A stretch of 33,784 bases of DNA from Sulfurimonas sp. (GTDB taxonomy: Bacteria; Campylobacterota; Campylobacteria; Campylobacterales; Sulfurimonadaceae). The stretch lies in contig NZ_JAHYJB010000016.1 in NCBI RefSeq assembly GCF_019429335.1, forward strand, positions 1 to 33,784, given 5' to 3'. The translations under genes and the position numbers were made by a program. Below the pieces are notes generated by a model, which was not told the origin of the DNA, did not search any database, and saw nothing but the letters and a program-made list of their open reading frames with translations. This document shows, one piece after another, positions 8,104 through 13,297 of the stretch (positions are counted from its first letter, which is position 1; the number at the start of each line of letters is the position of its first letter).

Positions 8104-8409
8104 CTACTCAAACTCTATGCCATGAGGCAATTTTTTCGGTGATTTTATGCGAAGCTGCTTGTGGATGCTCATTCGTCCATAAACCACTTCAATGGCGGAA
8201 GCATTCACCTCAAACTCTTTTGCTAAAAACAGAACCATATAGTCCGTCGCCTTTCCCGCTACCGGCTGCGCCTTTACGCTCACTTTTAGCTGATTGCCTT
8301 TTGGTTTTCCAATAACATCTCTCTTTGCGGAGGGAGTTCCTAAAATGTTTAAAACCAAAACATCCCCGTCCCACTCGTAATAGATATGCGCTAAATTTCT
8401 TGCTTTCAT
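8104..8409 (-). CDS. YggU / DUF167 family protein
   Basis: This 101-residue soluble protein shows the hallmark of the DUF167 (YggU) family, KVSVKAQPVAGKAT in the middle, followed by a helix and the 'YGRMSIHKQLRI' strand. The length is usual for the family. The biochemical role of DUF167 is not established. Its start ATG lies only one base after the stop of a 15-codon remnant of a DUF1016 gene, so the defence island begins exactly at its 5' end. Its original promoter has presumably been displaced, and it may now be read from the island's transcript. It is followed by the M18 aminopeptidase and flgS on the same strand. Confidence 0.9.
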   Translation of the reverse strand: MKARNLAHIYYEWDGDVLVLNILGTPSAKRDVIGKPKGNQLKVSVKAQPVAGKATDYMVLFLAKEFEVNASAIEVVYGRMSIHKQLRIKSPKKLPHGIEFE

Positions 8410-8410
8410 T

Positions 8411-8458
8411 TTATTTTTTTATGTTCAGATACAAATCATCATTTTTTACGGGCTTCAT
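8411..8458 (-). pseudogene. N-terminal remnant (15 codons) of a third DUF1016 gene
   Basis: An ATG at 8458 opens a 15-codon frame, MKPVKNDDLYLNIKK, ending at TAA 8413-8411. The first 14 residues are identical to the N terminus of the intact DUF1016 protein at 9492-10535. The frame breaks where the intact gene has six A residues and this copy seven, and similarity ends there. Its ATG overlaps the TGA of the preceding DUF1016 gene exactly as in the intact gene pair. It is therefore the stump of another DUF1016 copy whose body has been deleted, joined directly to yggU. Confidence 0.85.
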
Positions 8459-8492
8459 TTCTTACCTTCCACAATTTCTATCTCTTCATCGC
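8415..8492. repeat. 78-bp direct repeat, copy 1
   Basis: The stretch matches 10492-10569 at an offset of 2077 bp with one mismatch (G at 8450 against C at 10527). It covers the last 11-12 codons of the DUF1016 gene at 8455 plus the first 14 codons of a DUF1016 N terminus. The two copies bracket the intact DUF1016 pair. Confidence 0.95.
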
Positions 8493-9495
8493 CTCTTAAA
8501 ACATTTTCGAGTTCTTTTCTAAGCTCTTCTTTGTTTGGCAGGTAAAGTTGATACTTTTGTACAAAAAGTTGGCTATTCATACCGTAAGTCGCATACTCAA
8601 CCAAAAGTTCATCTTTTTCTTTACTAAGTATGATGCCTATCGGCGGATTGTCCCCTTCGATATTTTGTTCATTTGCAAAGTATCCAAGATACATGTTCAT
8701 CTGCCCAATATCCTGATGTTTTACCTCATTTATTTTCAAATCTATCAAAACAAAACATCTCAATATCCTATGATAAAAAACCAAATCTACTTTATAGTGA
8801 GTATTGTTTAATGTCACTTTGTACTGTCTGCCAACAAATGTAAATCCTCTGCCAAGCTCAAGTAAAAAGTTTTGAAGATTGTCACACAGTAAGCTCTCAA
8901 GCTGGGTTTCGGCTATATGGTAAGGCTCTGGAATTTTCAAAAACTCAAAAACATAAGGGTCTTTTAAGATATCTGTCGGCTTCTCTATAATCTGCCCATT
9001 TTGAGAGAGAGCCAAAACATCTTCTTTGTTTTTGTTTAAGCTTAGTCGCAAAAACAATCCACTCTCTTTTTGTCTTTGTAGCTCTCTGATAGACCAATTT
9101 TCAAGCACTGTCTGCTTCTCATAAAACTCTCTCTCCAAATCATCACTTATCTTCAAAAGCTCCACAACATGCGACCAGCTCAATTTGTGCGACAGTGTCG
9201 CACAAATTGGATAGGCTATATAAAACTGCCTAAATCGTACCAAGTTGCTACGACTAAAACCTTTGCCGTGCTTGATAGTCAAATCTTGACTGAGCTGTTC
9301 TAAAAGATTTTTACCGTATGTTGCTTTTTTAGCTCCATCTTGCTCAAACTCAACAATGTATTTTCCTATCTCCCAGTAAGTTTTTACAAGCTCACTATTT
9401 ACGGCTTGGAATGCTTTAACACGACCATTTTCATAAGCTTGAGAAATAGTGCCTAAAAGATTTTCGTACTCTGGGTTAGTTGCTTGTATGTTCAT
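8455..9495 (-). CDS. DUF1016 (YhcG-type) PD-(D/E)XK nuclease, second of a tandem pair
   Basis: The 346-residue protein has a DUF1016 N-terminal helical domain (about 10-170, with 'KTYWEIGKYIVEFEQ' and 'GKGFSRSNLVRFRQFY') and a C-terminal PD-(D/E)XK nuclease domain. Its catalytic core is VDLVFY followed by LIDLK, then KHQDIGQMNMYL; the usual ELK is DLK here. Such proteins accompany type I and related restriction loci and are thought to be DNA-binding nucleases; the exact activity is not settled. Its ATG overlaps the stop of the paralogue upstream by four bases (ATGA). The upstream gene's last codons supply its ribosome site (GGAGGGTGAGAA). Its own last codons (EEIEIVEGKK) lie in the 78-bp repeat and were probably exchanged with the tail of a lost methyltransferase gene. 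Family assignment is secure. Confidence 0.92.
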   Translation of the reverse strand: MNIQATNPEYENLLGTISQAYENGRVKAFQAVNSELVKTYWEIGKYIVEFEQDGAKKATYGKNLLEQLSQDLTIKHGKGFSRSNLVRFRQFYIAYPICATLSHKLSWSHVVELLKISDDLEREFYEKQTVLENWSIRELQRQKESGLFLRLSLNKNKEDVLALSQNGQIIEKPTDILKDPYVFEFLKIPEPYHIAETQLESLLCDNLQNFLLELGRGFTFVGRQYKVTLNNTHYKVDLVFYHRILRCFVLIDLKINEVKHQDIGQMNMYLGYFANEQNIEGDNPPIGIILSKEKDELLVEYATYGMNSQLFVQKYQLYLPNKEELRKELENVLRGDEEIEIVEGKK

Positions 9496-10535
9496 TTCTC
9501 ACCCTCCACAATCTTTATCTCTTTCATCAATCCAAGCTCAAAAACATCTCTCTCAATCTCAGCCTTCAACTCTGCCTCACTCGGTAAATAAAGCTGATAC
9601 TTCGACACAAACAGGTTTTCATTGTCGTTTAAAACCGAGTATTTTACTACTGTATTGTCTTTGTCTGCACAGAGTATGATTCCGATGGTCGGGTTATCGT
9701 TCTGCTCTTTTTCCATATCGTCATACATTCGCACATACATATCCATCTGCCCTACATCTTGATGGGTTAGTTTTCCTTTTTTTAGGTCTATGATGACAAA
9801 ACATTTCAACATGTAGTTATAAAAAACCAGGTCTATGTAAAAGTCACTTGTCTCTGTTTTGATTCTTTTTTGTCTGGCTACAAATGCAAAACCTCGTCCA
9901 AGTTCTAGTAAAAAATCTTGTATCTTTTCGATGAGTGCAGATTCTAAGTCGCTTTCATAAAAAGCATTGTTTTGTTTGAGGTCTAAAAATTCTAAAACAT
10001 AAGGGTCTTTGATGATATCTTTTGAGGTGAGTTGTAAATCTTTTGTGTTTTCTTTAGCTTCATTTATGACCGGCTGTTTCTCTTTGCTTGAGATGATTCT
10101 TTCATAGTAAAAAGTACCGATTTGTCTCTCTAAGGCTCTTACGCTCCAGTTCGATTTAGCTGATTCCTCTGTGTACCAAAGTCGTGCTTGTGGATTATCT
10201 ATCCTCATGATAAGTCTATAATGACTCCAGCTCAATTGGTCACACAGCGTGTGACTATTTGGAAAAGCCAAATAAAACTGTCTCATCATTTTTAGGTTTG
10301 TTGTTGTAAACCCCTTCCCAAAATCTTTAGTTAGTTTAGTAGAGAGTTCTTTGATGAGATACGAACCATACTCGGCTCTATCTTTTCCGTTTTGTTCTTC
10401 CTCTACTATTTGCTGACCGATGCTCCAGTAAGCCTCGACCATTATGAAGTTCACTTGTCTGTAGGCATTGTCTCTAGCACTCTGGAGGATATTTTTTATG
10501 TTCAGATACAAATCATCATTTTTTACCGGCTTCAT
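9492..10535 (-). CDS. DUF1016 (YhcG-type) PD-(D/E)XK nuclease, first of a tandem pair
   Basis: This 347-residue paralogue of the following gene has the same order: DUF1016 N-terminal domain (AYWSIGQQIVEEEQ, GKGFTTTNLKMMRQFYLAF), then a nuclease domain with IDLVFY, IIDLKKGKL and THQDVGQMDMYV, and the C-terminal 'SKYQLYLPSEAEL'. The two proteins align over their whole length but are clearly diverged, so this is an old duplication or a two-subunit system rather than a recent copy. The catalytic Asp and DLK lysine are present in both. The start ATG at 10535 is inside copy 2 of the 78-bp repeat. Its ribosome site (GGAAGGTAAGAA) is provided by the last codons of a deleted methyltransferase gene. 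It ends EIKIVEGEK and is coupled by ATGA to the next gene. Confidence 0.92.
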   Translation of the reverse strand: MKPVKNDDLYLNIKNILQSARDNAYRQVNFIMVEAYWSIGQQIVEEEQNGKDRAEYGSYLIKELSTKLTKDFGKGFTTTNLKMMRQFYLAFPNSHTLCDQLSWSHYRLIMRIDNPQARLWYTEESAKSNWSVRALERQIGTFYYERIISSKEKQPVINEAKENTKDLQLTSKDIIKDPYVLEFLDLKQNNAFYESDLESALIEKIQDFLLELGRGFAFVARQKRIKTETSDFYIDLVFYNYMLKCFVIIDLKKGKLTHQDVGQMDMYVRMYDDMEKEQNDNPTIGIILCADKDNTVVKYSVLNDNENLFVSKYQLYLPSEAELKAEIERDVFELGLMKEIKIVEGEK

Positions 10536-10569
10536 TTCTTACCTTCCACAATTTCTATCTCTTCATCGC
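10492..10569. repeat. 78-bp direct repeat, copy 2
   Basis: This is the partner of 8415-8492, with 77 of 78 bases identical. It spans the first codons of the intact DUF1016 gene and the C-terminal codons of a lost upstream gene. Confidence 0.95.
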
Positions 10570-10594
10570 TCAAACCATACAGCTTATAAACTAA
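10532..10594 (-). pseudogene. C-terminal remnant of a lost DNA methyltransferase
   Basis: Reading towards the DUF1016 gene there are 20 codons, LVYKLYGLSDEEIEIVEGKK then TGA, preceded immediately by an in-frame TAA. 'LVY.LYGLSDEEI.IVEG' is the familiar tail of Eco57I/TaqI-like and type IIG adenine methyltransferases of restriction-modification loci. The TGA overlaps the ATG of the DUF1016 gene, so the methyltransferase was once the upstream partner of the nuclease pair. Everything upstream of these 20 codons has gone; the DUF262 gene now ends 16 bp away. The family assignment rests on recall of this tail, not on a search. Confidence 0.65.
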
Positions 10595-10609
10595 TTAAAT
10601 TTTCACCAA

Positions 10610-12649
10610 TTAATCTCTAATTGTATAAACAAAATCGCTACCACTTAAACCAAACTTTTCACAGATAAGTTTTACATAAGTCATAATAGAATTGGCACTT
10701 AAGTTTGTTTCTAAAAAATAAGATTCTTTTATCTCGTACGGTTTTCTACAGTCGGTTTCCATGCTGGAGATAATTCTTTGTTTTTTACCACTAAAATCAT
10801 CATCAATTAATAACGACTTTGCAATATCATAGTCAAAATCAACTAAAATCTTTACAACATTCACATACAAGTCATTCCAAGATTTTACAGTATGTTTTTC
10901 ATTAAATAGTTCAAAATAAAGCGGTTTTTTGCCTGTAATATCAATATCATCATCAAGCGTATAAAACTCTTTATCTGTATCCTGAAAATCAAGTTTTAAA
11001 TCTAACTCTTTTGGGTATTCCCACAATATTTTAGCTTCTTCAAAAAGTACATCAGCTCTTCTGTTTATCTCTTTATCATCCCAATTTATTGCATTGATAA
11101 AATATTGATTGAGCTTTAATCTGCTTTGCTCTTTTAAAATATATTTTTTATCTTCAAAAGATTTGTTACCAAGTTGAGTATTATCGCCTGAAAGTGATAA
11201 ATTGCCAATATTGTGCAGATATTTATCATGAATAAGTTGATAGTTGTCTCCGAGTTTTGCTCTCCAAGAATTTGTCAATGTTTGTGGCATAAAATGTTCT
11301 ATCGAGAGTGTCGCAATATCAACTTTTTCATTATTTTCTTTATTTTCAAGTCGTAATAAAATAAATTTTATATTTTTTAGATTATACGCATCCCTTGAAG
11401 TAAAATCAGCTCTGAACTCTTCATCATCTGGAAAAATTGCAGAACCCCTTTTTGAAAACAAAATTGTTGCAAAATATTTACTAAATTGCTCATACATAAA
11501 ATTTGGCATTTCTAAAATATCACTAAATAAAGATGCAAAAACTTTATTTAAAGCGTTAGTTGCTTTGTTGCATACCATTCTTCTGATTATGTAACTTTCA
11601 ATGATTTCTAATGTAACAAACAACTCTTGTTCATTAATTAGTTGTTTGTTGAAACTAGATATAACTGATAATAAAAATGGATAAACAACTCCAATTTTTA
11701 GTTGTTTAAGATTTTTCAAATTTTGTGCATAAATTTCATTGTGAGGAAATAAAAAAGTTTTATAAATTTTTGAATACTCTAAAAGTTCAATGAGTAAACC
11801 TTTTGTTTGCATATTTTCAGAAGAAACAAATACTTTAAAAGCTTCATAAGTATCATCTTTATTTGGGATTTTGTTCTGTTTTACTGTTAAATAATCTCTT
11901 ATAAAATTTGATATATTTTCACTTGTTAAATTCTCTTCTATTTTAAACCAATAGTTTTCAAATAGCTCAATTTGCTCATCAGCCTCTTTATCCATAAGCA
12001 AAAAATTTCTTATTAAATCTGATTGAGATAAACTAACTCCTGTTGAATTGATACTTTCAAAAATTAGTTGAGGATTGTCATCTCTTCGATTAAGTGCAAT
12101 GTGCACAATAAACAACTTTTTAAATCCTAAATAAAGTGATTTAAAATCTCCAAACTTTATCATTTGATTTTTAAAAAAATTGTAATTTTTATAAATATTT
12201 GAATTAGTATCTATTGTGTCAAAATCATTTTTTAGTAATTTTTTAAAAACATCATCATCTTTTTTGATTGGTTTGAGTTTTAGCTTATTTTTCTCATCAA
12301 GTCTTTTATTAATCAAAAAACTCTCTAAAATCTCATCTTTTAAATCTTCATCATCAATGACATCATACAAAGCTTTTAAAAAAAGAGTGGAAGTAGTAAG
12401 CCTTTGTTGTCCATCGATAATAACATACTCTTTTAAATCTATCGAATCGGTATCACTATTGGCAACATAAACTATCGAACCCATAAAGTGACTTTTTCGT
12501 TCACCCTGAAGTCCTATATTTTTAATATCTTCAAAAAGTTGCAAACAGTTTTTTTCTTTCCAATCATAATTTCTTTGATAAACAGGAATAATGAATCTTG
12601 TCTTATTTGAAGATAAAAAATCTTCAATGCTTATTTGTCTTGCTTCCAT
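10610..12649 (-). CDS. GmrSD-like DUF262-DUF1524 restriction nuclease
   Basis: The 679-residue protein starts with a DUF262 (GmrS-like, ParB/sulfiredoxin-fold NTPase) domain: IPVYQRNYDW at 21-30 and the nucleotide-binding IIDGQQRLTT at 77-86. A long helical middle leads to a DUF1524 (GmrD-like, His-Me finger nuclease) domain with IEHFMPQTL (H452) and HNIGNLSLSGDNTQLGNKSF at 479-498. About 110 further residues (570-679) form a C-terminal extension often seen in such proteins. GmrSD and relatives (including BrxU) cut DNA carrying modified cytosines using NTPs, so this is a candidate type IV enzyme against modified phage DNA. Both catalytic motifs look intact. The ATG follows the toxin stop by one base, so it is in one operon with the toxin-antitoxin pair. 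Substrate is not predictable. Confidence 0.9.
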   Translation of the reverse strand: MEARQISIEDFLSSNKTRFIIPVYQRNYDWKEKNCLQLFEDIKNIGLQGERKSHFMGSIVYVANSDTDSIDLKEYVIIDGQQRLTTSTLFLKALYDVIDDEDLKDEILESFLINKRLDEKNKLKLKPIKKDDDVFKKLLKNDFDTIDTNSNIYKNYNFFKNQMIKFGDFKSLYLGFKKLFIVHIALNRRDDNPQLIFESINSTGVSLSQSDLIRNFLLMDKEADEQIELFENYWFKIEENLTSENISNFIRDYLTVKQNKIPNKDDTYEAFKVFVSSENMQTKGLLIELLEYSKIYKTFLFPHNEIYAQNLKNLKQLKIGVVYPFLLSVISSFNKQLINEQELFVTLEIIESYIIRRMVCNKATNALNKVFASLFSDILEMPNFMYEQFSKYFATILFSKRGSAIFPDDEEFRADFTSRDAYNLKNIKFILLRLENKENNEKVDIATLSIEHFMPQTLTNSWRAKLGDNYQLIHDKYLHNIGNLSLSGDNTQLGNKSFEDKKYILKEQSRLKLNQYFINAINWDDKEINRRADVLFEEAKILWEYPKELDLKLDFQDTDKEFYTLDDDIDITGKKPLYFELFNEKHTVKSWNDLYVNVVKILVDFDYDIAKSLLIDDDFSGKKQRIISSMETDCRKPYEIKESYFLETNLSANSIMTYVKLICEKFGLSGSDFVYTIRD

Positions 12650-12650
12650 G

Positions 12651-12950
12651 TTAGTTTGTCTCCATATTTACTGTATAGCTATATTTTTCATGGTGAATAA
12701 GTGCAAAAATAGAGATTGTTTCATCTTCAATCATATAAACAACGGTATAGCCTTTAAATACCAAGTCTCTAATGTTTTCATCATCATGATAAATTGATTT
12801 TCTATGCTTATACGGCATGTGCGAAATATCTTTACATGATGCAAACAATTCGTTTTTAAATTTTCTAGCCGCGCGAGGGTTGTCTTTTGCTATATACTCT
12901 AGCTTTAGAGCCAAAGGGTTAATGAAACTCTCTTCAAATCTAATGTTCAT
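12651..12950 (-). CDS. RelE/ParE-superfamily toxin
   Basis: The 99-residue protein has the short ParE/RelE layout: N-terminal helices (SFINPLALKLEYIAKDNPRAARKFKNEL), then strands with 'HRKSIYHDDENIRDLVFKGYTVVYMIEDETISIFALIHH'. The strand pair 'R.L.FKGYTVVYMI....I.IFAL.H' is characteristic of ParE-type toxins. Whether it acts on gyrase (ParE) or mRNA (RelE) cannot be told. It overlaps the upstream antitoxin gene by 11 bp and ends one base before the DUF262 gene, so the TA pair leads a larger defence transcript. Confidence 0.85.
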   Translation of the reverse strand: MNIRFEESFINPLALKLEYIAKDNPRAARKFKNELFASCKDISHMPYKHRKSIYHDDENIRDLVFKGYTVVYMIEDETISIFALIHHEKYSYTVNMETN

Positions 12951-13257
12951 ACGCTTTTATCACTGCATCAAGCTTAGCCTCTGCTTCATCCGTAGAGTAA
13001 AATTTAGCCGTACCGCTCTTTATTTTCTCTACCTGTGCGGCTACAAATTTTCTATCTTCTTCAAAGAGTGCTTTTTTAACCTCTTTTTCGATGATTTTTT
13101 CGAAATCTTCACTTTTTAAAAGTATAAAATCAAGTTTATTGTTTTTTAAAATCCCGATTTTCTCCAACTCTCTTTTATACAGTTTTGATGTAATTGTCGC
13201 AAAATTTTTTGCAACCTCCGTCGCACTAAAGAGTTCGTTCGTATTGTAAGCAACCAT
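12940..13257 (-). CDS. Type II antitoxin, Phd/YefM-like
   Basis: This 105-residue protein lies directly upstream of the toxin and overlaps it by 11 bp, the standard antitoxin-first order. The N-terminal half (FSATEVAKNFATITSKL...NKLDFILLKSEDFEKIIE) has the Phd/YefM DNA-binding pattern. The charged C-terminal helices (EEDRKFVAAQVEKIKSG, DEAEAKLDAVIKAYEH) would wrap the toxin. A GTG at 13263 would add two residues, but the ATG at 13257 has AAGGGAG five bases upstream and is preferred. It is expected to repress its own promoter; perfect 11-bp direct repeats lie just upstream. Confidence 0.82.
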   Translation of the reverse strand: MVAYNTNELFSATEVAKNFATITSKLYKRELEKIGILKNNKLDFILLKSEDFEKIIEKEVKKALFEEDRKFVAAQVEKIKSGTAKFYSTDEAEAKLDAVIKAYEH

Positions 13258-13270
13258 AATCACTCCCTTT

Positions 13271-13297
13271 ATTTTGCATATAATTTTGCATATTATA
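13271..13297 (-). promoter_or_regulatory. Promoter and candidate operator of the toxin-antitoxin operon
   Basis: On the minus strand a TATAAT (13297-13292) overlaps the dnaE stop codon. Two perfect copies of an 11-bp word (plus-strand ATTTTGCATAT at 13271-13281 and 13283-13293, period 12) follow immediately. They lie between the -10 box and the antitoxin ribosome site, where an autoregulating antitoxin would bind. Confidence 0.5.

Follow-up and report, generated by a model that had tools for sequence, protein, structure and literature searches.

A 78-bp direct repeat around two predicted DUF1016 nuclease genes of Sulfurimonas: a probable rearrangement scar of gene gain behind dnaE

The locus and its repeats

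The window, i.e. the whole stretch of 33,784 nt that was analysed, comes from a draft genome of Sulfurimonas sp. On its minus strand the genes follow each other in the order dnaE, an antitoxin-like gene, a ParE-type toxin gene, a DUF262/GmrSD gene, gene1, gene2, yggU and apeB. Gene1 and gene2 are bracketed by the two copies of a 78-bp direct repeat, which are the only long repeat within the window. The features of the locus are as follows (the in-gene palindromes are given without strand).

8104-8409, minus strand: yggU (DUF167), the downstream flank; a 104-aa gene normally precedes it and is absent here
8411-8458, minus strand: stump ORF MKPVKNDDLYLNIKK with its stop, 15 codons, read from the sequence, with its own Shine-Dalgarno motif and with the stop 1 nt before the ATG of yggU
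8415-8492, minus strand: downstream repeat copy (77/78), made of the 3' end of gene2 and the gene1 stump
8455-9495, minus strand: gene2, DUF1016/YhcG-type protein of 346 aa with DUF1016_N and YhcG_C, 42% identical to gene1
9181-9209: palindrome inside gene2, CAATTTGTGCGACACTGTCGCACAAATTG, 29 bp, perfect (14/14 pairs, p=0.0005), met in a self-search
9491-9528 (about), minus strand: second copy of the tail of a restriction-modification (RM) enzyme, GATGAAAGAGATAAAGATTGTGGAGGGTGAGAAATGAA, formed by the gene1 end and the gene2 leader and assigned by tail comparison
9492-10535, minus strand: gene1, DUF1016/YhcG-type PD-(D/E)XK protein of 347 aa with DUF1016_N and YhcG_C
10233-10261: palindrome inside gene1, at the position that corresponds to that in gene2, with 11/14 pairs (fixed centre, p=0.001; free-centre test, p=0.20, not significant)
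10492-10569, minus strand: upstream repeat copy (77/78), made of the RM tail and the first 15 codons of gene1
10532-10594, minus strand: RM-tail remnant LVYKLYGLSDEEIEIVEGKK with its stop, 20 codons, overlapping the gene1 start (ATGA); the same ending is found in an intact Eco57I/TaqI_C homologue
10610-12649, minus strand: DUF262/GmrSD-type gene by profile match, the upstream flank, with a 91% relative at the same locus in genome G022

Both proteins were matched by DUF1016_N and YhcG_C (PF17761 and PF06250) at full length and far above the gathering cut-offs, as well as by the PADLOC candidate PDC-S02 (E down to 5.5e-150), and the residues D235, L251 and K252, which are the D and the (D/E)LK of PD-(D/E)XK, are invariant in alignment A1. 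Judged from sequence, gene1 and gene2 are members of the DUF1016 family and predicted nucleases. DUF1016/YhcG genes are widespread and are listed as candidate phage-defence genes, without established function. The unit between the repeats had been described preliminarily as holding exactly two DUF1016 genes, and this was confirmed by the profile matches. No transposase or integrase gene is present between the repeats, the content being the two DUF1016 genes alone; an insertion sequence or a composite transposon was rejected on this ground and for the lack of inverted repeats at 8415 or 10569. Recent tandem duplication of one gene into the other was ruled out by their identity of merely 42%. 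A third, more distant DUF1016 gene was observed elsewhere in the same genome (G000:C14:16296-17279, L002). The ParE-type toxin gene and the overlapping antitoxin-like gene occupy window positions 12651-13263, and the same pair adjoins a truncated gene1 in genome G132. A type III methyltransferase gene lies at 256-2157 near the contig end, where its partner region has possibly been cut off.

The two repeat copies are identical at 77/78 positions with a spacing of 2077 bp, and, just as first reported, one of them leads into an intact DUF1016 gene (gene1) and the other into the 15-codon stump. On the minus strand the repeat reads GCGATGAAGAGATAGAAATTGTGGAAGGTAAGAA, followed by gene1 from its ATG through codon 15. 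The C-terminal tail of an Eco57I/TaqI_C-type RM enzyme makes up the first 35 bases, inside which the DUF1016 ribosome-binding site sits, and the remainder is gene1 codons 1-15. The preliminary description had placed in each copy a gene end (...EEIEIVEGKK and stop) overlapping a DUF1016 start; in the downstream copy this is indeed the end of gene2, whereas in the upstream copy it is the RM-tail remnant and not the end of a DUF1016 gene. The sole mismatch between the copies is AAGCCC in the stump versus AAGCCG in gene1 and in genomes G022 and G123 (AAGCCA in G005), and since all of these differ from AAGCCC, the base of the stump looks derived. Both window copies carry AGAAATTGTGGAAGG, whereas most relatives carry AAAGATTGTGGAGGG, which argues for a recent common origin of the two copies.

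The RM tail is present three times, i.e. before gene1, before gene2 and after gene2, and the copy at the gene1/gene2 boundary is shorter (33/38 match). Upstream of gene1, 20 codons of the RM enzyme remain. By pattern search the tail was found in 19/135 genomes of the genus, mostly closing ORFs that end in ...LYGLSDDEIKIVEG or similar, and two of the tail-bearing ORFs are Eco57I-type methylase-nucleases (Eco57I with E of 1.5e-31 and 1.7e-31, respectively, plus TaqI_C). In genome G104, the stop codon of an enzyme with Eco57I and TaqI_C overlaps the start of a DUF1016 gene by ATGA. Tail remnants resembling that of the window also precede the gene1 relatives in G022, G123 and G113 and another DUF1016 gene in G124. 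The tail may persist since it carries the Shine-Dalgarno motif of the next gene.

The position directly before yggU is taken in relatives by a conserved 104-aa gene that belongs to no known family and nearly overlaps yggU; 15 genomes of the genus were found to have it, always next to yggU or close by. The same search found no copy in the whole window genome (99.98% complete), and a move of the gene to another place in this genome was rejected accordingly. The missing 104-aa gene indicates that a deletion occurred at the downstream junction, which was invisible to the preliminary description. A Shine-Dalgarno-like motif within 20 bases upstream of yggU was present in none of the 12 sequences compared, but such a motif does precede the stump ORF. 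As yggU is without a ribosome-binding site of its own and the stump stop lies 1 nt ahead of it, this placement may explain why the stump was kept, and the stump may now carry ribosomes to yggU by translational coupling.

Flanking repeats across the DUF1016 family

Taken alone, the 78-bp repeat would be an ordinary scar. For the comparison across the family, the upstream flank of each DUF1016 gene was locally aligned with its downstream flank, and a score of at least 20 was used as the cut-off. Long flanking direct repeats were found for 12/104 DUF1016 genes, including both window genes, versus 2/274 other ORFs of the same loci (Fisher 6e-6). A second sample, from Campylobacterota and counted without a control set of its own, gave 5/44, so that 17/148 DUF1016 genes carried flanking direct repeats in both samples together. 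Several of the cases are related (L151, L153, L155 and L156; L152 and L158), which leaves about nine or ten independent events. A common place of DUF1016 genes is directly behind or before another gene, often with an overlap at the stop codon of that gene, and in a considerable minority of cases the end or the start of the neighbour is present on both sides of the DUF1016 gene. Such frequent long border repeats point to a mobility that would act at the level of the DUF1016 gene, without a transposase.

The start of a gene is repeated in four of the cases. At L193, an NAD-epimerase gene has its start repeated over 123 bp (110/123); the nearest relatives have the epimerase gene behind a different gene, and an exact empty site was not found among them. 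At L158 (75 bp, 69/75) and L152 (68 bp, 59/68), the start of the following gene is duplicated, and so it is at L165 (51 bp, 42/51), where the following gene has the product MTKTVTLACGNGG, which we take to be HypE-like. The order of stump, insert and intact gene is found in L193, L158, L152 and L165 and not in the window. A type I M-subunit-like gene contributes its tail to both sides over 54-87 bp at L153, L151 and L155, and L309 has the end of a sugar-dehydratase-like gene, 207 bp long, on either side of DUF1016. A tandem of two DUF1016 genes whose proteins are 100% identical lies at L295 (483-2788, G298:C65); its period is 1271 bp, and repeats of about 330 bp flank it. Separately, 51-bp direct repeats surround a small gene upstream of a gene2 relative at L067 (3925-4700, G063), and the motifs TTGGCATGTGGAAA there resemble the start of the gene behind DUF1016 in L165.

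On named plasmids, a weaker case was met in Persicobacter (43 bp at a score of 19). This complete plasmid, together with the similar repeats around DUF1016 genes of unrelated genomes, speaks against the possibility that one repeat copy of the window was misjoined in assembly. In favour of such an artefact, the assembly is a draft in 73 contigs, one of which makes up the window in full; against it, the copies differ at one base and the missing 104-aa gene is nowhere else in the assembly. We regard a misjoin as very improbable.

Insertion with long target duplication is known for RM genes (Nobusato et al. 2000, as described in PMC1643837 and PMC3031569). The likeness lies in a nuclease-type gene without transposase between long, variable direct repeats of neighbouring DNA, in a form which can in principle amplify; repeats of tens to hundreds of bp stand at both ends of the insert, as do 78 bp in the window. 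The DUF1016 cases differ in that the cargo is not itself a known RM gene, that the repeats are located at the ends or starts of genes with the insert often overlapping the neighbour, and that the window has a reversed order and a pair of DUF1016 genes. No link between this type of insertion and DUF1016 was found in the papers searched, and flanking repeats or an in-gene palindrome of DUF1016 are mentioned in no paper found, so that both set the present genes apart from the family as described. Long flanking repeats would be a simple route to the gain, tandem duplication and loss of defence genes.

The dnaE-yggU interval and its probable history

Within the genus, the interval between dnaE and yggU (window 8410-13293) serves as a cargo site, in which many different insertions occur. 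It holds the 104-aa gene alone in G111, G114, G008, G134 and others, gene1 at 92% identity in G005, a different DUF1016 gene in G113 and the 91% relative of the DUF262 gene in G022. At L173 (6001-6650), a frameshifted gene1 remnant of 110 codons lies between dnaE and yggU and abuts the latter, and the 104-aa gene is gone. Gene1 or its stump is thus found near yggU in two relatives (G005 and L173).

The 78-bp repeat is probably a rearrangement scar from the gain of DUF1016 nuclease genes at this junction behind dnaE. The preliminary description had offered two other accounts of it. For a longer gene1-gene2 array collapsed by recombination no counterpart was found, as neither an array nor an adjacency of gene1 and gene2 was found in the 134 other genomes of the genus. 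The same result weighs against its second account, in which the 2077-bp unit actively amplifies and excises through the repeats. Direct repeats of 78 bp can recombine, an identical DUF1016 tandem does exist at L295, and inserts with long target duplication are expected to amplify by unequal crossing-over (PMC3031569); however, an excised or amplified state of the unit was not seen among the genomes found, and at the downstream copy the junction has decayed and a gene has been lost. An actively cycling unit is accordingly considered improbable. The broader suggestion of a connection between such repeats and the gain and loss of DUF1016 genes was supported by the family-wide enrichment, by the identical tandem at L295 and by L173, where of gene1 a stump alone remains next to yggU. 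The preliminary description had named as contrary to its reading a fixed occurrence of this arrangement, with diverged repeats, in distant relatives; this was not encountered.

For the preferred reading, a rearrangement scar of gene gain, we infer the order of events and the mechanism as follows. The DUF1016 genes would have been gained next to an RM enzyme whose last codons contain the DUF1016 ribosome-binding site. The outer repeat pair would reach 78 bp since a second gene1 start once stood behind gene2. Most likely, a tail-to-tail exchange via the 14-nt GCGATGAAGAGATA placed a further copy of the tail and of gene1 behind gene2. A native gene2 end and the RM tail have these 14 nt in common, as judged from a relative of gene2 in G126 that ends in GGCGATGAAGAGATAAAGATAG (98% aa identity over the 53 residues present on its contig). 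A later deletion would have run from codon 15 of the downstream gene1 up to yggU, joining the two and taking the 104-aa gene with it. The body of the RM enzyme would also have been lost, and the DUF262 gene now stands upstream. A simple target duplication was rejected for the window, because at a gene start it gives the order stump, insert and intact gene, whereas the window has intact gene1, gene2 and stump; the reversed order requires at least one extra event beyond simple insertion.

The main rival to this history is a templated insertion in one step: a break located between gene2 and yggU would have been repaired through invasion of the tail upstream of gene1, with about 64 nt copied and then joined to an A-rich stretch before yggU, and a second gene1 would never have been present. 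The short copy, the one-sided 14-nt homology and the lost 104-aa gene would all be accounted for by this single event, but it leaves unexplained both the family-wide flanking repeats of DUF1016 genes and the presence of gene1 near yggU in relatives, and it is judged rather unlikely.

The palindrome inside DUF1016 genes

The gene1 palindrome differs from, and is weaker than, that of gene2. At the fixed place before LSWSH, 38 non-redundant genes gave a mean of 10.1/14 complementary pairs, versus 5.4 for synonymous shuffles and 2.0-5.0 for neighbouring centres. The palindrome exceeded the synonymous shuffles (p at most 0.025) in 64/79 non-redundant genes, 31/33 of the viral-contig genes in this set among them, versus 11/395 control segments of the same genes; in the later Campylobacterota sample it was present in 22/37. 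A separate scan of viral contigs with E. coli YhcG gave no match. All strong palindromes (65/65) were centred on the first codon position. In alignment A2, which comprises 34/37 sequences (three were left out, one mis-anchored), the covariation score of the arms was 0.64, whereas shuffles reached 0.18 and slid partners no more than 0.15, and 121 two-sided changes were counted; the value for all 37 sequences (11.1/14 pairs versus 6.8 for swapped arms) agreed with this. The arms thus covary across phyla, with a fixed in-frame place and a changing sequence. As a reason for the palindrome, an RNA hairpin was weighed against the sense-strand mismatches, in which G.T (16) and A.C (19) are about equal and give no sign of G.U tolerance. 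Instead of selection, a mutation bias could account for the palindrome, with template switching turning imperfect palindromes into perfect ones.

Palindromes within open reading frames are also known as Rickettsia palindromic elements (mentioned in PMC4316617) and as coding palindromes in the mitochondria of Nematomorpha (PMC6649704). Those of DUF1016 differ in their length of about 17-35 bp, their one fixed in-frame place in one gene family, their occurrence across phyla and their covarying arms. The one from E. coli differs further in dispersal: as a 33-bp query in E. coli it matched yhcG alone among the matches listed, the median of two places per genome being the two strands, so that a dispersed repeat was rejected.

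The catalytic domain of DUF1016 has been placed in a branch near the YraN-like Holliday-junction resolvases (PMC1189080), and a link of the DUF1016 protein to a cruciform in its own gene would by this analogy be an attractive idea. Speculatively, and with little likelihood, DUF1016 genes could be single-gene mobile units, in which a Holliday-junction-resolvase-like nuclease would use the covarying, in-frame, cruciform-capable palindrome as its own recognition or processing site and the gene would enter at gene borders with long target duplications. The border repeats and the fixed-place palindrome make the function of DUF1016/YhcG testable. In E. coli K-12, where yhcG carries three tandem palindromes (L196 4129-4237, yhcG nt 302-410), the palindrome can be tested in that strain itself; other strains carry one or two (L197, L198 and L199 were compared). 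In E. coli MB49, yhcG is truncated at nt 406, within the third palindrome, and an annotated transposase gene follows just behind. The gene1 remnant of L173 is broken just behind the palindrome, and gene1 breaks at the same place in L170 and L171.
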